Positions 38,341-61,172 of a stretch of 64,000 bases of DNA are shown here, one piece after another; the first letter of the stretch is position 1; each line of letters begins with the position of its first letter. The notes below the pieces were generated by a model. The model ran no database searches and had not been told where the DNA came from. It saw only the letters and a list, made by a program, of their open reading frames with translations. Position numbers and translations under genes: made by a program. Source of the DNA: Bacteroidia bacterium. Its GTDB lineage: Bacteria; Bacteroidota; Bacteroidia; B-17B0; Aurantibacillaceae. Location of the stretch: positions 1 to 64,000 of the forward strand of contig JALHPG010000007.1 in assembly GCA_022842625.1 (NCBI GenBank), in the 5' to 3' direction.

Positions 38341-39144
38341 CTATTCGTGAATTGAAATTACTGGAACTTTAGCAACAAATGCTACTTTTTTTGTATTTGA
38401 CTCTACAAAGAAATTATAAAAAGCTGAATGTTTTTTACTGATGATAGCTACCAAATCATATTTAGCGGTAGAACAACTCTTTTTTATTCCGGTTTCAATA
38501 TCCTTTGCGTTAATAATTTCTATTGGTAGTTTTTTACTATTTATTGTCATTTTAAAAGTAAGCGGGTGAAAAAGCTCATCTTTAGTTCTTATATGAACAA
38601 GGTCTAATTTCGCTTTAGTTAATTTCAAAAATCTCTCGAATCCGGTAAGTGATGATTTAGCGAGTTTTTCGTTATTATCAACTGCCATTAAAACTGAGGA
38701 CAATTTATGCTTAGTGTATTTTTCGGGTACAATAATTACAGGGCATTCAATTTTACCTGCAATATTTACCCCATGACTTCCGTAAATAAATTTAGATATA
38801 CGATCTTTGGCAGCTAAACCCATTACCATAGCTTCTACCTGATGCTCACTTGCAAAATTTTCTAATTCATAATTAAAACTTCCGCTTGTTACAATTTCAT
38901 TGATCTTTAATTTCGGAAATGATTTTTGGATCTCATTAATTAGTTTATCTGTTTTATTCTCACTAATTTTTCTTTGCGCAGTATAAGAAATTCCATAAAG
39001 TCCCATGTTGGAATGGATAACAGGAGCCTCAAATAAATTAAAAATCGTTAGTTTACATTTAAGTGCGTCTGCTAACATGGCTGCATATTTACATGCATTA
39101 ATTGAAGATGGTGTAAAATCTGTACCTGCAATAATTGTTTTCAT
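38341..39144 (-). CDS. Universal stress protein (tandem Usp)
   Basis: A 267-residue protein with an N-terminal Usp domain (IIAGTDFTPSSINACKYAAMLA) and a degenerate second one (about 150-267). The ATP-binding glycine motif of the first domain is altered (GLAAKDRISKFIYGSHG), so ATP binding is uncertain. It lies downstream of the Usp gene at 39263, with 118 bases between them in which I see no TGAY-N4-RTCA site. Confidence 0.8.
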   Translation of the reverse strand: MKTIIAGTDFTPSSINACKYAAMLADALKCKLTIFNLFEAPVIHSNMGLYGISYTAQRKISENKTDKLINEIQKSFPKLKINEIVTSGSFNYELENFASEHQVEAMVMGLAAKDRISKFIYGSHGVNIAGKIECPVIIVPEKYTKHKLSSVLMAVDNNEKLAKSSLTGFERFLKLTKAKLDLVHIRTKDELFHPLTFKMTINSKKLPIEIINAKDIETGIKKSCSTAKYDLVAIISKKHSAFYNFFVESNTKKVAFVAKVPVISIHE

Positions 39145-39262: not shown

Positions 39263-40087
39263 TTACTCGTGCAGGGCCAACAATGGTACTTTTGTGTGAA
39301 AGGCGATCCGTTTGGTTTCGGGCTCATTAAAAATACTTTTTAAAAGCGAATGCTTGCGAGGGATCATTACTACCATATCCATCTTTTTTTCTCGAACAAA
39401 ATCATTTATCCCATTTACTACATTTTGGTTTTTAGCAAACCAAAAAGTGTGATTAACATCTTCAAGCGCGTGCTCAAGCTTAATGCCTGCAATAGCTTTA
39501 CTCACTGTTGGAAGCTTCTCATCAACAGGCGTAATATTTATAACATTAACATGAGACTTAAAAAGACGAACAATTTCTTTTAATGGATCAAAGATCTTAA
39601 TGTTAGCAATCGCCTCATAATCACAAGCCAATGCAATTTTTTTAATGAGTTTAAATTTCACTTTTCTTTCTATTGCCAAAACCGGACAAGCCGACTTTCT
39701 AATTAGAGAGGTGGTGGTGCTGCCAATAAGTTTTTCGGCCAATTCGCCACTTCCGTGCATTCCCATTACAATCAAATCAATTTTGTTGTTTTTCGCGAAC
39801 TGATTAATTTCATCTACAGGAAATCCATATTTACATTTGCATTCAACAATAATCTTTTTTCCGTGTTTTTTATAAATTGCTTTTTCTATTTTTTTTAAAA
39901 CAGATAAGTTAGACTCCTCAATTTCTTCCATAGGAGGGATTACCATAACATCTGTTGTTACAATAGGCACATAAAATGCATGAAACAAAATAATTTTAGA
40001 CTTAGTTAATTTTGCAAGCTCAACAGCATAATTTATAGCGTTTTTTGAGATGCTTGAAAAATCAGTCGGAACAAGAATTGTTTTCAT
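39263..40087 (-). CDS. Universal stress protein (tandem Usp, ATP-binding)
   Basis: A 274-residue two-domain Usp. The first domain begins ILVPTDFSSISKNAINYAVELA and ends with an intact G-x2-G-x9-G-S/T ATP motif (GMHGSGELAEKLIGST). The second (about 150-274) lacks it. It follows the DoxX-like gene by 35 bases, so it is expected to be expressed from the operator-bearing promoter at 40634-40698. Confidence 0.85.
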   Translation of the reverse strand: MKTILVPTDFSSISKNAINYAVELAKLTKSKIILFHAFYVPIVTTDVMVIPPMEEIEESNLSVLKKIEKAIYKKHGKKIIVECKCKYGFPVDEINQFAKNNKIDLIVMGMHGSGELAEKLIGSTTTSLIRKSACPVLAIERKVKFKLIKKIALACDYEAIANIKIFDPLKEIVRLFKSHVNVINITPVDEKLPTVSKAIAGIKLEHALEDVNHTFWFAKNQNVVNGINDFVREKKMDMVVMIPRKHSLLKSIFNEPETKRIAFHTKVPLLALHE

Positions 40088-40122: not shown

Positions 40123-40548
40123 CTAAGGCTTAAAAATTAAATTATCTAAAGACCACACGTGCCAATCTTGAGGAGTAAGAAGAAGAAGTAAAATCAAAAC
40201 CAATCTAATGAATACATATTTAGAGTCCCACATAGGCGTGTTAAGGCCAAAGCCAATAGCAGCTGTAATAAGGTTTATCCCTAATAGTATTAAAGCAATA
40301 TATTCAAAAAGACCAAATATTAAAAGAAAGCCGCAAAAAAGGGCAGTATACGTGGTAAACCAAGAGGCTAAAACTATTAATAACCTTGGCATTCTTTTTC
40401 CTTCAAACATATTTTGGTATGTTTCGATGACAACACTAACTTTTATGTTAAAAACAGCATCGTAGCCTTGAAAAAAGAAAAGCACGCCTAAAAACACCCT
40501 AGCAATAAATATTGCGGCAATTTCATGATATTGATTAATAATTTCCAT
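40123..40548 (-). CDS. DoxX-like membrane protein
   Basis: A 141-residue protein with four hydrophobic helices. The N-terminal FIARVFLGVLFFFQGYDAVFNI resembles DoxX/TauE-like small quinone-associated membrane proteins, and SLDNLIFKP closes the C-terminus. The exact role is unknown. It heads the transcript with the Usp gene at 39263 and is preceded by two FNR-like operators. Confidence 0.6.
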   Translation of the reverse strand: MEIINQYHEIAAIFIARVFLGVLFFFQGYDAVFNIKVSVVIETYQNMFEGKRMPRLLIVLASWFTTYTALFCGFLLIFGLFEYIALILLGINLITAAIGFGLNTPMWDSKYVFIRLVLILLLLLTPQDWHVWSLDNLIFKP

Positions 40549-40633: not shown

Positions 40634-40698
40634 TAAATATAGAAACGGAACCAATGGCGATTAATGACCCTAATCAGAGCCAAACATGATTGTTATCA
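40634..40698 (-). promoter_or_regulatory. Crp/Fnr-type class II promoter of the DoxX-usp operon
   Basis: Two palindromes: TGACCCTAATCA (40665-40676) and TGATTGTTATCA (40687-40698), with centres 22 bp apart. On the minus strand TATATTTA runs from 40641 to 40634. Its first base is 29.5 bp from the centre of the nearer palindrome. The predicted leader is about 80 bases. The rest of the region between 40549 and 40777 holds nothing I recognise. Confidence 0.8.
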
Positions 40699-40777: not shown

Positions 40778-41845
40778 TTAAAAATATTTTTTAATATAAA
40801 GTTCTAGTTTTTGAATATCCTTAATAGAAATATTACTTCCCTTAATTTCAATCAGGTTTTCGTGTTTAAAATCGCTTAAGGTCCTAATCAAAGATTCTGT
40901 AGCTGTACCAACAATATTTGCAAGATCTTCGCGAGAAATAGAAATACTGAATACATCTTTAGAGTTTTGTTGATATTGTTTTTGCAGCTTAACTAGAGCT
41001 TCTGCCACACGTTTTTTAACGCTGCTATAAGCCATTTTTAGGAGCTGCTCTTCTTTCTCTTGAATTTCGTTAGACAGCAATCTAACAAATCGTTTCATTA
41101 CACCATGGTTATTATTCAATAAAGCATAAAAATCTTCTTTTGGAATTAATACCACGCTGGAGTCTTCAAGGGCTTCAGCGCTTTCATTATAAGGCGTTTC
41201 GTCTAATAGGGCAGTGTAGCCAAAAAAATCTCCTTCTTTCTGAAGTGAAATGATCAATTCTTTGCCGTATTCGTGAGCTCTAAAACTTTTTACTTTACCA
41301 CTTTGCAACAAGAATAAATAATTTGGATTATTCCCTTCGGTATATATTAATTCTTTTTTTTTAAATACTTTTAGCTTTGCCGAATCACTTAAATTTTTTA
41401 ATTCTTGCAGGGATTTGGCTTCATCTAAAAATGTATTAATTCCTGCTTCGTCTCTTGAATATTCACTTTTTAATGCTTCAGATTTTTTTAATCGACTTTC
41501 AACCGCTCTTAATAGTTCAACATCATCAAAAGGTTTTGTGATATAATCATCCGCCCCCATTTCCATTCCTTTTCTAAAATCGCCACGTTCAGATTTTGCC
41601 GTTAAAAATATAAATGGGATCGAAGCTGTTTTAGGATTTTTGCTCAACAAATGTATCACTCCATAACCATCCAAGATCGGCATCATGATATCACAAATTA
41701 TTAAGTCGATATGGTTTGCTGACGCGATTTCAACGCCAACCTTACCATTTTCGGCTTGAATTACTTTATAATTAGCTAATTCGAGAATCTCCGCAGTATT
41801 CTCTCTAACTTCGTGGCTATCTTCAATTAATAATATTGTCTTCAT
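40778..41845 (-). CDS. Receiver-Crp/Fnr fusion transcription regulator
   Basis: A 355-residue two-part regulator. Residues 1-120 form a CheY-like receiver with E8/D9, phosphoacceptor D52, T82 and K104. Residues 150-260 form a cyclic-nucleotide-type sensory fold (IYTEGNNPNYLFLLQSGKVK) and a long dimerisation helix. Residues 275-340 form a Crp-type winged helix-turn-helix (SREDLANIVGTATESLIRTL). E317 and R321 sit where FNR and CRP contact the GA of TGA half-sites. The FNR iron-sulphur cysteines are absent, so the signal probably comes by phosphorylation. It overlaps its kinase gene by 23 bases. Confidence 0.88.
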   Translation of the reverse strand: MKTILLIEDSHEVRENTAEILELANYKVIQAENGKVGVEIASANHIDLIICDIMMPILDGYGVIHLLSKNPKTASIPFIFLTAKSERGDFRKGMEMGADDYITKPFDDVELLRAVESRLKKSEALKSEYSRDEAGINTFLDEAKSLQELKNLSDSAKLKVFKKKELIYTEGNNPNYLFLLQSGKVKSFRAHEYGKELIISLQKEGDFFGYTALLDETPYNESAEALEDSSVVLIPKEDFYALLNNNHGVMKRFVRLLSNEIQEKEEQLLKMAYSSVKKRVAEALVKLQKQYQQNSKDVFSISISREDLANIVGTATESLIRTLSDFKHENLIEIKGSNISIKDIQKLELYIKKYF

Positions 41846-43052
41846 TGTGTGATGGTATTTTTATATAAAAAACTGTTCCTTGATTCAATTCACTCTCAAA
41901 CGTTATCGTTCCGTTAAGCACTTCAATATATTTTGCAACAATATTTAAACCTAAGCCGGTACCCTGAATATTTAATGCGTTTTTAGCTCTAAAAAATCGT
42001 TCAAATAAATTTTTCTGCTCATCAACAGGAATGCCCATTCCATTATCTTTAATAACGAGTTGTAATTCTGAATTTTTTACAACTGTGGTGACCTCTATGA
42101 TCTTATCTTCTGCAGAAAATTTACTTGAATTTGAAACTAAATTAATCACGATGTTCTTTAAAAACTGTTTGTCGCAAACAAAGTCTTGAGCTCCATCATG
42201 AGAATATTTAATTTCCTGTCCGGTTTTTAAAAAATTGCTAAGTTCACTTAGACATTCGTTAACGTATGAGGGAATATTAATTGAACAATAATTTACGCTG
42301 ATCTTTCCTTCTTCTAATTTTCCGGCAGATAAAAAATCATTTAAAATTAAGGTCATATTTGAAACAGCCGATTTAATCCTGTTAACGTGTTTAAACCTCT
42401 TATCTTCATCATCAGTGTTTTTATATTTTCCTATGAGTGCCGCAGAGGATAATATCGTACTTAAAGGCGTTCTAAACTCATGCGAAGCCATAGTAACAAA
42501 TCGCGATTTCATGTCGTTTAATTCTTTTTCTTTTTCGAGAGCAACACTTAGTTCGTCTTTAGAGGCTTCTAACTCATGCAAAGTTTCTTTTAAAATTTTA
42601 GTTCGCTCTTCTACCTTTAATTCAAGTTCGATATTAATGCGTTTTACTTTTTCTTCGGCTAATTTTCTGTCAGAAATATCAATTATAAAAGCTATAACAA
42701 ACAAGTCATTGTTGTTTTTGTAATGAGTTAAACTAATTTCGATTGGCAACTCTTCCCCGTTTTTACGTTTTCCAAATAACTCCAAACCCTTTCCCATAGT
42801 TCTCGGATGAGGATTTTTGTTGTATCCCTCGCGATGTTTTTCATGAGAGGCAGAGTATTTTTTAGGGACCAATACCTCGATTTTTTGACTAATCAATTCA
42901 TCTTTTTCATATCCAAATAATCTTTCGGCACTTGGATTGGCACGGATAATTGAACCGAATTGATCTGCTATAATTATTCCTTCTGTAGCGTACTCGAATA
43001 AAGCTTTTAGGCTTTCCATTTCTGTATCATTATTTTCCCCCAAGGTATTCAT
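41823..43052 (-). CDS. Cytoplasmic PAS histidine kinase, FixL-like
   Basis: A 409-residue kinase without transmembrane segments: a PAS domain (about 14-130), a coiled coil (about 133-185), HisKA with H191 (MASHEFRTPLSTIL), and a HATPase domain with NLVSNSSKFS, DNGMGIP and GTGLGL. In the PAS F-helix region H70 aligns by eye with the haem-ligating histidine of FixL (VLVPKKYSASHEKH), but the FixL distal arginine is replaced. I chose the ATG at 43052. A TTG at 43067 would add five residues. It is the first gene of a two-gene operon. Confidence 0.88.
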   Translation of the reverse strand: MNTLGENNDTEMESLKALFEYATEGIIIADQFGSIIRANPSAERLFGYEKDELISQKIEVLVPKKYSASHEKHREGYNKNPHPRTMGKGLELFGKRKNGEELPIEISLTHYKNNNDLFVIAFIIDISDRKLAEEKVKRINIELELKVEERTKILKETLHELEASKDELSVALEKEKELNDMKSRFVTMASHEFRTPLSTILSSAALIGKYKNTDDEDKRFKHVNRIKSAVSNMTLILNDFLSAGKLEEGKISVNYCSINIPSYVNECLSELSNFLKTGQEIKYSHDGAQDFVCDKQFLKNIVINLVSNSSKFSAEDKIIEVTTVVKNSELQLVIKDNGMGIPVDEQKNLFERFFRAKNALNIQGTGLGLNIVAKYIEVLNGTITFESELNQGTVFYIKIPSHNEDNIIN

Positions 43053-43071: not shown

Positions 43072-43113
43072 CAAAGGTCTAAATCGAAAAATTAAAAAAA
43101 ATGACATAAGTCA
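43072..43113 (-). promoter_or_regulatory. Crp/Fnr-type operator before the kinase-regulator operon
   Basis: TGACATAAGTCA (43102-43113), the same 12 bases found before ccoS at 50674. On the minus strand GACCTTTG (43079 to 43072) is a one-mismatch -7 element 28.5 bp from the operator centre, one base short of the spacing in the other promoters. This suggests autoregulation but is a weaker match. Confidence 0.55.
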
Positions 43114-47204: not shown

Positions 47205-47247
47205 TGACCATAATCATTTTAAAGGGCGGTTAAAATAAATATGTTTG
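47205..47247 (+). promoter_or_regulatory. Crp/Fnr-type class II promoter of the Usp gene
   Basis: TGACCATAATCA (47205-47216) with its centre exactly 29.5 bp before TATGTTTG (47240-47247), a perfect -7 element. At 47183-47194, 22 bp upstream, AAATCCTAATCA keeps only the right half-site. The predicted start is near 47251, with a leader of about 13 bases. Confidence 0.85.
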
Positions 47248-47263: not shown

Positions 47264-48094
47264 ATGACTAAAATATTGGTTCCATTAGATTTTTCGAAAT
47301 CATCAGATAACGCACTTGATTATGCAATAGGTTTAGCAAGTTTTTTGGCGGCCGACATTGTTCTACTGCACGTTGAGTCTATTTATTTATATAATCTTGA
47401 TAGTACAATTCTTACCAATACTATTGAAGATAAAATTGAAATAAGTCGTAATATCTTAAAAGAAAAAGCCGCGAAAATTAGAAAGGAGAACATGAGTATT
47501 TCGAATGTAGAATATCATGTTGAGGCCGGAAATGTTGAAAAAACAATATCCGATTACATTACAAATTACAGAATAGATTTTGTTGTTATGGGCATAAGTG
47601 AACCAAAGACTAGCCCTGCTAAACAGTTATTTGGAAGCACGGTTCTTCCTATTTCTAAAAACTCAGAAGCACCTGTTTTTGTTATTCCTGAAGATTACAA
47701 GTATAAAAAAATTCAAACTATCGCCTACGCAAGTGAATACAGCAGTGACATTAAACAACATAATGGTTTATTTCAAATAAAATTCCTTAATAAATTGTTT
47801 GATTCAAAATTAAATGTGTTACATGTCATTCCTCAAAACCATGTTCTAAATGAAGTTGAAACTGAGGCCGATCAATACGTAGAAGAGACCTTAGAAGAAA
47901 CTAATCACAAAACCTTTATTCTATCAGAAAATAAGGCGAGTAATGCCTTATTAGATTTTGTTAATAAAAATGAGGTAGATTTAATGGTTGTTGAGCCAAA
48001 AAAACATTCATTTTTCCATAAATTATTCTACCCTAGCACTACAAAAGAGGTAGCTTTTAAAAGTCCTGTTCCGGTTCTGACCATTAAAAGTTAA
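47264..48094 (+). CDS. Universal stress protein (tandem Usp)
   Basis: A 276-residue two-domain Usp, starting ILVPLDFSKSSDNALDYAIGLA. In the first domain the ATP motif is GISEPKTSPAKQLFGST, where the second glycine is replaced, so nucleotide binding is doubtful. The second domain spans about 148-276 and ends PVLTI. It is monocistronic, with its own FNR-like promoter. Confidence 0.85.
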   Translation: MTKILVPLDFSKSSDNALDYAIGLASFLAADIVLLHVESIYLYNLDSTILTNTIEDKIEISRNILKEKAAKIRKENMSISNVEYHVEAGNVEKTISDYITNYRIDFVVMGISEPKTSPAKQLFGSTVLPISKNSEAPVFVIPEDYKYKKIQTIAYASEYSSDIKQHNGLFQIKFLNKLFDSKLNVLHVIPQNHVLNEVETEADQYVEETLEETNHKTFILSENKASNALLDFVNKNEVDLMVVEPKKHSFFHKLFYPSTTKEVAFKSPVPVLTIKS

Positions 48095-48192: not shown

Positions 48193-48257
48193 TGACCTTT
48201 ATCACAAAATAAACTGATAATTATCATCCTACACCCTTTTAGATACATGTAAGTTTA
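48193..48257 (+). promoter_or_regulatory. Crp/Fnr-type class II promoter of ccoI
   Basis: Two palindromes, TGACCTTTATCA (48193-48204) and TGATAATTATCA (48215-48226, fully symmetric), with centres 22 bp apart. The second is 29.5 bp from TAAGTTTA (48250-48257). The predicted transcription start is about 48261, one base from the GTG start codon. Confidence 0.85.
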
Positions 48258-48261
48258 CGCC

Positions 48262-50676
48262 GTGAAAACGACGGAAAACACACAGGTAAAAACCACATGC
48301 TATCACTGCGGTGAGGATGTGCAAAACACCAACTTCCAAATTGAAAGCAAAAAATTTTGTTGCAGAGGCTGTCAAACTGTTTATGAAATAATAAACAAAA
48401 ATAATTTATGCACCTATTACGATCTTGAGAACAAGCCCGGTATTAACCAAAAACAAGAGGTTAGAATCGGAAAGTTTGATTTTTTGGATGACGCACAGAT
48501 CATCAATAAACTGATCCATTTTCAGGATGAAAAACATCAGCATGTGATCTTTTATTTACCGCAAATGCACTGCAGTTCTTGTATTTGGATCTTAGAACAC
48601 TTAAACAAGATCGATGAAGGTATTATAAAATCACAAGTTGATTTCATAAAAAAAGAAGTTACGGTTATTTACGATTTCCACCGATCATCGTTAAAAAAAG
48701 TAGCCGAAACACTAACCATCATTGGTTATGAGCCGCATATCAGCCTAAATGATGTTAGTGCAAGTAAAATAAAAAAATACGATACCACAAGGATCGTAAA
48801 ATTAGGCATTGCCGGTTTTTGTTTTGGCAATATTATGATGTTAAGCTTTCCTGAATATTTTTCGCTGGGAGAGTTAGAAGATCCTGCCCTTAAACAGTGG
48901 TTTAATTATTTAAATTTATTTTTATCTCTGCCTGTATTTTTTTATTCAGCCTCTGAATTTTTTATTTCAGGTTATAAAGGTCTTCGCCAAAAATTTTTAA
49001 ATATTGATGCGCCAATTGCCTTAGCGGTACTAATTACTTTTACTAGAAGTGTGTATGAGATAATTTCTAATACAGGCGCCGGTTATTTAGATTCTATGAG
49101 TGGCATTGTGTTTTTTATGCTTGTTGGTCGCTATTTTCAAAACAAAACCTACCAAAGTATTTCGTTCGACAGAGATTTTACTTCCTATTTCCCATTAGGG
49201 GTTAGTGTTATAAATCCCGATGGTTCTGATAAACAGATCTCTGTTGCAGATCTAAAAGTTGGCGATAGAATAAAAATTCATAACGAAGAGATCGTTCCGG
49301 CCGATTCAATTTTATTTTTAGGCAAAGCAACGGTTGATTATAGTTTTGTTACGGGTGAATCTTTACCTGTCGAAAAATCAATTGGAGAGATCGTTTATGC
49401 AGGCGGCAAACAAACCTCAGGGGCAATAGAATTAGAAGTGGTAAAAGAGGTTTCGCAAAGTTATTTAACTCAATTATGGAACAATGAAGCCTTTACTGAA
49501 AATAAGGAAGAAAAAAACGTTTCTTTTATCCATAAAGTAAGTAGATACTTCACCTATATTTTATTTTCTATTGCGCTTATTTCAGCGGTTTATTGGATGA
49601 CAAACGACCCTTCAAAAGTTTGGGGAGCAGTTACCGCCGTTTTAATTGTTGCCTGCCCTTGCGCATTATTGCTAAGTTCTACATTTACTAACGGTAATAT
49701 GCTTCGAATACTAAATAAGTATAAATTATATATTAAAAATGCGGCTGTTATTGAAAACATGTCGGATATTGATACTATTGTGTTTGATAAAACAGGTACT
49801 ATTACCGAACAAGGCAAATCTGAGATCATTTATCAAGGCCAGAGTTTATCGGCCGAACAATCACAACTGATTCGATCTTTAGCATCTCAATCAAATCATC
49901 CTTTAAGTAAAAGCGTAGTTTCATTTTTACCGATATCTAAACGATTGAATGTAAAAAATTACAAAGAATTTAAAGGCTTCGGAACATCTGCTACCATTAA
50001 CGATCATTTTATTAAAATGGGTTCTTCTGAATTTGTTTTAGGTAAAAATTCAACGCATCTTAATTCAGGAAGCAGGGTTTATATAAGTATAGATGATGAA
50101 TTTATAGGTCATTATGTAGTTAAAAATGCTTACCGCGAAGGGTTAGAAAAGATCATAACATCATTAGGGTCAAATTTTGAATTAAAAATTTTATCGGGCG
50201 ATAATGCCTCAGAAGAAGGGTATTTAAAAAATTTATTTGGCGCTAAAACAGAAATGCTGTTTAACCAAAAGCCTGAAGATAAATTAGCTTTCATTAAAAA
50301 ACTCCAAAACAGCAATAAAAAAGTTTTAATGATAGGAGATGGCTTGAACGACGCGGGCGCCTTAAAACAAAGTAATGTAGGAATAGCAATTAGCGACGAT
50401 ACCAATAATTTTTCGCCGGCATGCGATGCTGTTTTATCAGGAAAAAATTTCTTTTTACTAAAAGAACTTATTAATTATTGCAGAAAAGAAAAAACGATCG
50501 TTTTCTCAAGTTTTGTGCTATCAATCTTATACAATTTTGTCGGCTTATTTTTTGCTGTTCAGGGCGATTTAAAACCTGTAATTGCAGCCATTTTAATGCC
50601 AATTAGCTCCATTAGCATTGTTCTTTTAACTACAGGATTAAGCACGTTTTATGAAAGAAAATTAAATAGAACATGA
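48262..50676 (+). CDS. ccoI: Copper-transporting P1B ATPase of cbb3 oxidase assembly
   Basis: An 804-residue P1B-type ATPase. An N-terminal cysteine-rich segment (CYHCGEDV, CCRGCQTVYE) precedes a heavy-metal domain with CSSC (MHCSSCIWIL). VACPCALLL is the CPC transport motif, D509 in DKTGTITE is phosphorylated, and GDGLNDAGAL is the hinge. The N-terminal double cysteine domain marks the FixI/CcoI group that loads copper for cbb3 oxidase. The GTG start is forced: an in-frame TAA lies at 48250-48252 and no ATG is nearby. It ends 72 bases before ccoS. Confidence 0.93.
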   Translation: MKTTENTQVKTTCYHCGEDVQNTNFQIESKKFCCRGCQTVYEIINKNNLCTYYDLENKPGINQKQEVRIGKFDFLDDAQIINKLIHFQDEKHQHVIFYLPQMHCSSCIWILEHLNKIDEGIIKSQVDFIKKEVTVIYDFHRSSLKKVAETLTIIGYEPHISLNDVSASKIKKYDTTRIVKLGIAGFCFGNIMMLSFPEYFSLGELEDPALKQWFNYLNLFLSLPVFFYSASEFFISGYKGLRQKFLNIDAPIALAVLITFTRSVYEIISNTGAGYLDSMSGIVFFMLVGRYFQNKTYQSISFDRDFTSYFPLGVSVINPDGSDKQISVADLKVGDRIKIHNEEIVPADSILFLGKATVDYSFVTGESLPVEKSIGEIVYAGGKQTSGAIELEVVKEVSQSYLTQLWNNEAFTENKEEKNVSFIHKVSRYFTYILFSIALISAVYWMTNDPSKVWGAVTAVLIVACPCALLLSSTFTNGNMLRILNKYKLYIKNAAVIENMSDIDTIVFDKTGTITEQGKSEIIYQGQSLSAEQSQLIRSLASQSNHPLSKSVVSFLPISKRLNVKNYKEFKGFGTSATINDHFIKMGSSEFVLGKNSTHLNSGSRVYISIDDEFIGHYVVKNAYREGLEKIITSLGSNFELKILSGDNASEEGYLKNLFGAKTEMLFNQKPEDKLAFIKKLQNSNKKVLMIGDGLNDAGALKQSNVGIAISDDTNNFSPACDAVLSGKNFFLLKELINYCRKEKTIVFSSFVLSILYNFVGLFFAVQGDLKPVIAAILMPISSISIVLLTTGLSTFYERKLNRT

Positions 50677-50738
50677 CATAAGTCAGTATTCAAATTGATA
50701 AAAGTCAAGCATAAGAATTTTTAACAAAACTATATTTA
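50674..50738 (+). promoter_or_regulatory. Crp/Fnr-type class II promoter of the cbb3 operon
   Basis: Two palindromes: TGACATAAGTCA (50674-50685, overlapping the ccoI stop) and TGATAAAAGTCA (50696-50707, with a full FNR-like TTGAT-N4-GTCAA). Centres are 22 bp apart and the second is 29.5 bp before TATATTTA (50731-50738). The leader to the ccoS ATG at 50749 is about 7 bases. Confidence 0.88.
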
Positions 50739-60691: not shown

Positions 60692-60734
60692 TGACAAAAA
60701 TCATATTTATACTATTAAACTTTTTGTAAATTAG
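60692..60734 (+). promoter_or_regulatory. Crp/Fnr-type operator with weak promoter
   Basis: TGACAAAAATCA (60692-60703) with its centre 29.5 bp before TAAATTAG (60727-60734), a one-mismatch -7 element. There is no second palindrome at -22. It precedes the 113-residue membrane protein gene, with a leader of about 16 bases. Confidence 0.65.
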
Positions 60735-60752: not shown

Positions 60753-61094
60753 ATGCAATTAAAAGATGATCATTGGGAAGAATTATACATGTTTGCTAAA
60801 AATTCGGCTGAGAAACATGTAAGCTTTTCGGAAATTAAAACACAGTTATCGCAAAAAACTGATGATCTGGTTTTAATTGACGAAATAATTAAACAAGTAA
60901 AGCAAGTTCATTATGCCGTTAAAAGAAAAAATGGCCTCATCAAACTTGCTATAGCCTCCATTTTTTTAGTAGCAGGTTTTTTGATCACCTGCGTAAATTT
61001 CCATTCCAATCAATCATTTACAATTGTAATGTACAGCTCTACTTCTATAGGTTTGATCCTTTTGTTTTGGGGTCTGTATGAGATCATAGGTTAA
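60753..61094 (+). CDS. Small two-helix membrane protein of unknown function
   Basis: A 113-residue protein. The N-terminal 65 residues are charged and helical (DDHWEELYMFAKNSAEKHVSF, LSQKTDDLVLIDEIIKQV). Two transmembrane segments follow (LIKLAIASIFLVAGFLITCV and FTIVMYSSTSIGLILLFWG). I do not recognise a family. It sits between hemN and paaABC and is preceded by an FNR-like operator. Confidence 0.65.
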   Translation: MQLKDDHWEELYMFAKNSAEKHVSFSEIKTQLSQKTDDLVLIDEIIKQVKQVHYAVKRKNGLIKLAIASIFLVAGFLITCVNFHSNQSFTIVMYSSTSIGLILLFWGLYEIIG

Positions 61095-61106: not shown

Positions 61107-61172
61107 TGACTATAATCATCTACTATTACTGATGTTTGTCATGTATCTTAATTTTTAGTAACAATACATTTA
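61107..61172 (+). promoter_or_regulatory. Crp/Fnr-type class II promoter of paaABC
   Basis: Two palindromes: TGACTATAATCA (61107-61118) and TGATGTTTGTCA (61130-61141), centres 23 bp apart. The second is 29.5 bp before TACATTTA (61165-61172). Leader to the paaA ATG is about 14 bases. Confidence 0.82.

Follow-up and report, generated by a model that had tools for sequence, protein, structure and literature searches.

A predicted circuit of a FixL-like PAS kinase and a receiver–Crp fusion regulator associated with tandem TGA operators and cbb3 oxidase genes in Bacteroidota

A FixL-like PAS kinase and a receiver fused to an FNR/Crp-type activator are likely to form a two-protein circuit that would activate a cbb3 oxidase and stress regulon, a reading to which we give a probability of roughly three in four on the basis of sequence comparison. 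The pair was analysed within a window of 64,000 nucleotides (the whole stretch of DNA studied here) and appears to be best read as a collapsed FixL-FixJ-FixK circuit in which the last two steps are fused, with phosphorylation and oxygen sensing as its presumed inputs. The kinase, the fusion and their predicted DNA sites recur across a large part of Bacteroidota. How oxygen controls cbb3 respiration in free-living members of this phylum is, to our knowledge, largely unexplained. In this regard, the evidence names a candidate regulator, kinase, operator, promoter geometry and target list in cultured genera such as Runella, Dyadobacter, Pontibacter and Chitinophaga, and opens to direct test both the switching of a Crp/FNR dimer by receiver phosphorylation and the contact of an activator with the unusual Bacteroidota promoter.

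Domain organization of the regulator

The initial annotation described a complete CheY-type receiver with D52, joined to a Crp effector and helix-turn-helix that carry E317 and R321 and lack the iron-sulphur cysteines of FNR, and each part of this description holds. Translation of the open reading frame begins at ATG, and Pfam assigns Response_reg to residues 4-115 (E 1.2e-26), cNMP_binding to residues 159-246 (E 5.8e-23) and HTH_Crp_2 to residues 278-348 (E 5.1e-17), all above cut-off. Receiver residues E8, D9, D52 and K104, together with E317 and R321 of the recognition helix, are invariant across 39 relatives. The sole cysteine of the protein, C51, lies within the receiver, so the regulator is devoid of an FNR-type set of cluster ligands. 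The features of the regulator and its partner are as follows.

40778..41845, minus strand: receiver-Crp regulator, 355 aa (open reading frame, Pfam, conservation, AlphaFold model)
41501..41836, minus strand: CheY-type receiver (Pfam, invariant residues)
41108..41371, minus strand: Crp-type effector of the cNMP_binding fold (Pfam; Tyr at CRP E72, not Arg at R82)
40802..41014, minus strand: Crp-type helix-turn-helix with recognition helix GTATESLIRTLSDF (Pfam, conservation)
41823..43052, minus strand: soluble PAS-HisKA-HATPase kinase with PAS residue H70, aligned with FixL His200, and phospho-acceptor H191

The AlphaFold model of the regulator (pLDDT 83) shows the domains as expected, with a Crp part that matches CRP and FNR structures; TM scores by target lie between 0.72 and 0.92 for nearly all of the best 50 matches. 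No solved chain among the top structure matches combines a receiver with a Crp part, the receiver, Crp and kinase being matched separately. By sequence, the closest solved Crp part is the Porphyromonas gingivalis Crp/Fnr protein 2gau (E 1.8e-26), a structural-genomics entry that, unlike the regulator, has no receiver domain.

By the criteria applied to its sequence, the regulator falls outside FixJ, FNR proper and CRP proper. It has the acidic pair, phospho-acceptor Asp and Lys of response regulators, as well as the cNMP-binding fold and Crp helix-turn-helix of the CRP/FNR superfamily. Its helix-turn-helix is Crp-type and not the LuxR-type of FixJ; it shares the E..R recognition pair of FNR, and TGA sites co-occur with its gene, while N-terminal Fe-S cysteines are absent from its sequence; and the columns of the CRP cAMP pocket hold, in the alignment, Tyr in place of E72 and a residue other than Arg in place of R82. 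The missing Fe-S cysteines and the missing CRP-type cAMP pocket would fit a switch operated by phosphorylation.

How often a receiver precedes a Crp/Fnr domain had also been raised at the outset. A family search in one scan returned at least 592 pattern matches and at least 582 confirmed relatives, some of which may match by the receiver alone. The fusion is hence abundant in sequence data, and the domain architecture as such is not new.

A tandem TGA operator in front of a fixed promoter element

Operators around the regulator's own gene had been predicted, and the counts bear this out. The window contains 11 copies of the motif TGAY-N4-RTCA where 3.2 would be expected, and 0 of 100 shuffles reach 11. 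All 11 sites are intergenic, and 8 of them form four pairs spaced 22 or 23 bp apart, an arrangement that the initial annotation had missed. Over the whole genome (4.09 Mb), 9 pairs spaced 21-24 bp apart were found against 0 in the reversed control, 4 of the 9 being inside the window; for single sites the counts are only 237 vs 177 in the control, which makes the tandem pair the informative unit. Likewise, 87 genomes of the family contain 166 perfect tandem pairs against 0 in the reversed control. The sites also cluster at the receiver-Crp loci of relatives: in 80 named loci (1.39 Mb) there are 349 sites vs 57 in the control, or 247 vs 7 when intergenic sites are considered, and 35 pairs are spaced at 22 bp, with at most 5 at every other value.

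The genome is AT-rich, and the limited excess of single sites would be in line with TGA...TCA palindromes arising by chance or composition. We consider this explanation of the operators practically negligible and rejected it on the reversed-pattern controls, given the paired sites, the 22-bp peak, the intergenic location and the fixed -7 box described below.

The longer motif TTGAY-N4-RTCAA, with one mismatch allowed, is not enriched in the window (16 vs 15.5), and position -1 of the aligned sites is mostly A, not T. On this lack of enrichment the full FNR box was rejected, and the shorter TGAY-N4-RTCA of the initial annotation is the right core; the outer T of the FNR/FixK anaerobox TTGAT-N4-ATCAA is not conserved. 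The loss of the outer T fits with Ile320 of the regulator occupying the position of Ser212 in FNR, given the role of that serine.

For sites located 50-95 bp ahead of a start codon, the alignment was anchored on nothing but the tandem pair. From this alignment emerged, unrequested, TAnnTTTG, the Bacteroidota -7 element, at a distance of 57 bp when counted from where the upstream site starts and of 35 bp for the downstream site (A at a frequency of 0.85, T at 0.91 and 0.96). When tandem pairs were taken with no gene selection, a perfect TAnnTTTG was found in 31 cases at offset 35 and in 31 at offset 57; single sites show both peaks too (26 and 41 cases), with single digits at other offsets. With -7 taken as the centre of the box, the two sites have their midpoints near -40 and -62, where CRP/FNR activators of class II and class I bind.

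Every site in the window has a -7 box scoring 5/6 or 6/6 that faces a plausible target, namely the kinase/receiver-Crp operon, DoxX-Usp-Usp, the Usp gene at 47264, the CcoI-type ATPase, ccoS-ccoNO, a 113-aa open reading frame and paaA. Boxes in the opposite direction score at most 4/6, with a single exception that reaches 5/6 and lies at the class I offset as counted from 40687(+). The operators, boxes and predicted targets are listed below.

43102..43113, minus strand: putative autoregulatory TGAY-N4-RTCA site facing the kinase/receiver-Crp operon
43072..43079, minus strand: -7 box GACCTTTG (5/6), offset 34 from site 43102
40665..40698, minus strand: predicted tandem operator (22 bp; 40665/40687) of the DoxX-Usp-Usp genes
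40634..40641, minus strand: -7 box TATATTTA (5/6), offset 35, DoxX-Usp-Usp promoter
40123..40548, minus strand: DoxX-family membrane protein, likely target (Pfam)
39263..40087, minus strand: universal stress protein, likely target (Pfam)
38341..39144, minus strand: universal stress protein, likely target (Pfam)
47205..47216, plus strand: single site with -7 box TATGTTTG (6/6) at 47240, oriented towards the Usp gene 47264-48094
47264..48094, plus strand: universal stress protein, likely target (Pfam)
48193..48226, plus strand: predicted tandem operator (48193/48215) of the CcoI-type P-type ATPase gene 48262-50676; -7 box 48250-48257
50674..50707, plus strand: predicted tandem operator (50674/50696) of ccoS-ccoNO-ccoP-ccoG, 50749 onward; -7 box 50731
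60692..60703, plus strand: single site; -7 box 60727 faces the 113-aa open reading frame 60753-61094
61107..61141, plus strand: predicted tandem operator (23 bp; 61107/61130) of gene 61189, which encodes a PaaA-type oxygenase subunit; -7 box 61165

The -7 box of the CcoI-type ATPase lies just 5 bp ahead of the GTG start, which implies either an mRNA with almost no leader or a true start codon located further downstream. The 113-aa open reading frame has no convincing Pfam family and, with its own site and -7 box, is a candidate member of the micro-oxic regulon.

Outside the window, a box together with a site marks the genes of a nitroreductase, an HMA protein, a TerB-like protein and an HlyD-type protein as likely targets, among others, and a homogentisate-dioxygenase-like gene adjoins another tandem site. 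A further tandem operator (C6:57445-57478; locus L036:11446) lies between divergent open reading frames of 119 and 114 aa, both without a Pfam family, and is flanked by -7 boxes pointing either way. Three near-perfect TGA sites in 22-bp steps (C139:3996-4051; L049) precede the gene of a short, secreted-looking protein.

Which protein reads the operator

The gene of the receiver-Crp protein is present in 61 of the 392 genomes that make up our sample of the phylum, all of one class. Tandem pairs, counted as perfect matches, occur in 40 of these 61 genomes (21 have none), compared with 6 of the 47 others of the class and 9 of the 284 genomes outside it. The association is also seen within the family (p = 7e-4) and within genus g15, where pairs are found in 7 of 8 genomes with the receiver-Crp gene and in 0 of 17 without it (p = 1.7e-5). 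Moreover, in four genomes (G084, G081, G068 and G075) a receiver-Crp of the window type is the only E..R protein among the HTH_Crp matches, and these genomes carry 5, 3, 3 and 3 tandem pairs, respectively. The comparative evidence supports a tie between the receiver-Crp gene and the tandem TGA operator, and the initial proposal of the fusion as the likely regulator of an FNR-like regulon gains from it at the levels of phylum, genus and single genomes.

The genome encodes six cNMP-domain proteins, the window protein included. The most serious alternative reader of the operators is a second receiver-Crp (C170:661-1725(-); L041), which has its own kinase, an FNR-like SPESVSR helix and the E..R pair, and which could share the regulon. 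These features, together with a TGA site that precedes its gene, would also suit a scenario in which this paralogue is the main binder, leaving a different or a lesser group of genes to the window protein. We judge that scenario unlikely, since the four genomes with a sole E..R protein of the window type have tandem pairs, many genomes have their sites concentrated near the window-type gene, and G030, in which the only match is C170-like (46% identity), has no tandem pair. With its own kinase and the TGA site ahead of its gene, the paralogue may form a second branch or a cascade.

Even less probable, to the point of being very doubtful, is a reading in which the sites are bound by an ordinary solo Crp/Fnr protein of the genome, the receiver protein being a bystander. 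Solo proteins with the same type of helix are found in genomes that have tandem sites and lack the receiver-Crp gene, and three small solo cNMP proteins (187-194 aa) are encoded in the genome studied here; two of them carry Glu at the matching place, and these small proteins are conceivable readers. However, no solo Crp of the GTATE type is encoded in this genome, the recognition-helix Glu is replaced by Val in its 210-aa Crp, and the sites are absent from all 17 g15 genomes without the receiver-Crp gene.

The idea that the tandem operator belongs to the fusion alone was rejected, since the receiver-Crp-negative genomes with pairs that were checked contain solo Crps with a related helix. In eight of them these solo Crps have the same helix type, and most show an FNR-like CxxC..C N-terminus; some adjoin a tandem site. 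Their genes are found at L222-L232, in G102, G196, G235, G358, G393, G440, G356 and G383. Genome G018, which also has pairs and no receiver-Crp, encodes three related-helix solo Crps without the CxxC..C cysteine set. An operator shared with genomes that lack the fusion implies an operator code older than the fusion or shared beyond it, and the solo Crps in pair-bearing genomes make receiver-receiver contacts a less likely cause of the 22-bp spacing. A tree built from the Crp parts places the receiver-bearing proteins apart from the solos, with a support of 90/100 from a bootstrap that had not settled.

The partner kinase

The kinase is cytosolic, and its gene overlaps that of the regulator by 23 bp, which makes the two very probably translationally coupled. 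A histidine kinase gene lies directly upstream of the receiver-Crp gene in 77 of 80 relatives, and a TGA site is found within 300 bp upstream of the kinase gene in 36 of 72 cases, compared with 15% of other nearby genes (p = 9e-11). Proximity to cbb3 genes, whose constancy the initial annotation had put up for checking, turned out to be frequent (28 of 70 long loci) and not universal.

Among PDB entries, the nearest matches to the PAS domain of the window kinase are 10jx and the haem PAS of FixL, with FixL and DosP as the best named relatives. H70 aligns without gaps with the proximal haem ligand His200 of FixL and is invariant in 33 kinases, and the His200 column holds H in 63 of 68. On these grounds the PAS domain may bind haem. 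A histidine of this kind is also found in PAS domains not known to bind haem. The distal Arg220 of FixL is replaced by Leu in the window kinase, its column being variable among the 68 kinases (24 Met, 18 Arg, 11 Leu). Four relatives encoded directly before a receiver-Crp (L154, L162, L171 and L184) keep the full FixL signature, MPEP...H...GIGRE.

These data leave room for the same circuit with a kinase that senses something other than oxygen via haem, such as redox state, a quinone, a flavin or another cytosolic ligand. This version is possible, though the less probable of the two: the residue at Arg220, the proximity to 10jx, and a predicted regulon that includes stress proteins and oxygenases besides cbb3 are consistent with it, whereas the near-constant histidine, the haem PAS relatives FixL and DosP and the four kinases with the full motif argue for haem.

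Proposed circuit and relation to known systems

In the circuit that we favour, low oxygen or a linked redox signal, presumably perceived through haem, would probably cause the kinase to phosphorylate D52 of the receiver. Phosphorylation would free or stabilise a DNA-binding dimer of the Crp part, with neither an Fe-S cluster nor cAMP, and E317 and R321 would read the TGA half-sites. One dimer would occupy the class II position near -40; strong promoters would take up another one 22 bp upstream, in the class I position near -62. Binding would activate TAnnTTTG promoters. The predicted targets are the cbb3 oxidase, its copper ATPase and maturation genes, universal stress proteins, DoxX, oxygenases and the circuit's own operon.

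Among described systems, hFixL-FxkR-FixK of Rhizobium leguminosarum, which is also encoded beside fixNOQP, comes nearest (PMC7888657). With this system and with the FixL-FixJ-FixK cascade of rhizobia, the Bacteroidota pair shares a PAS kinase, a phospho-receiver, an FNR-type activator without Fe-S cysteines, TGA palindromes, and cbb3 operons as neighbours and, here, predicted targets. In contrast to FixL-FixJ-FixK, the receiver and the activator are one protein, which removes the intermediate transcription step; the outer T of TTGAT is lost, class I and class II sites stand in tandem, and the promoter has the Bacteroidota -7 box. FNR of E. coli and Aliivibrio has in common with the regulator the Crp fold, the E..R pair, the TGAY-N4-RTCA core and micro-oxic targets (predicted here), whereas the regulator differs in lacking the Fe-S cysteines, in its N-terminal receiver, in having Ile at Ser212 and in the lost outer T. 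From CRP, with which it shares the fold, the helix-turn-helix and promoter positions near -41 and -62, it is set apart by the replaced E72 and R82, the added receiver and an N4 core without TGTGA preference. The solo FNR-like Crps of Bacteroidota (e.g. L223, L225, L227 and L230) have nearly the same GTATE..IR recognition helix; in these, a Cys-rich N-terminus (CxxC..C) replaces the receiver and no kinase is needed. In a literature search that covered a minority of the subscription journals, we found no paper on a receiver-Crp regulator of this kind, its operator or its link to cbb3.

Variation among lineages

The two kinds of reader raise the idea of one micro-oxic operator code across Bacteroidota, in which tandem TGAY-N4-RTCA sites at about -62 and -40 before TAnnTTTG would be served by exchangeable proteins: Cys-rich, probably Fe-S, solo FNR-like proteins in some lineages, and the receiver fusion with a haem-PAS kinase in others. 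A direct O2 sensor and a phosphorelay sensor would then replace each other on the same regulon, an idea for which we see the odds as even.

In nine loci, chiefly of Pontibacter, Rufibacter and Adhaeribacter, the kinase adjacent to the receiver-Crp gene bears an N-terminal receiver, and most of these loci have a FixL-type kinase and a further receiver gene just upstream. The Pontibacter and Rufibacter relatives probably possess, judging from this gene order, a longer oxygen phosphorelay. A row of FixL-type kinase, receiver gene, receiver-kinase and receiver-Crp is seen in L128, L130, L132, L138, L143, L145, L177 and L183. Genes labelled RECCRP2 in the Pontibacter and Rufibacter loci were considered as additional fusions and rejected, those checked being single-domain receivers. 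The further receiver gene of the row is single-domain in L128 and L132.
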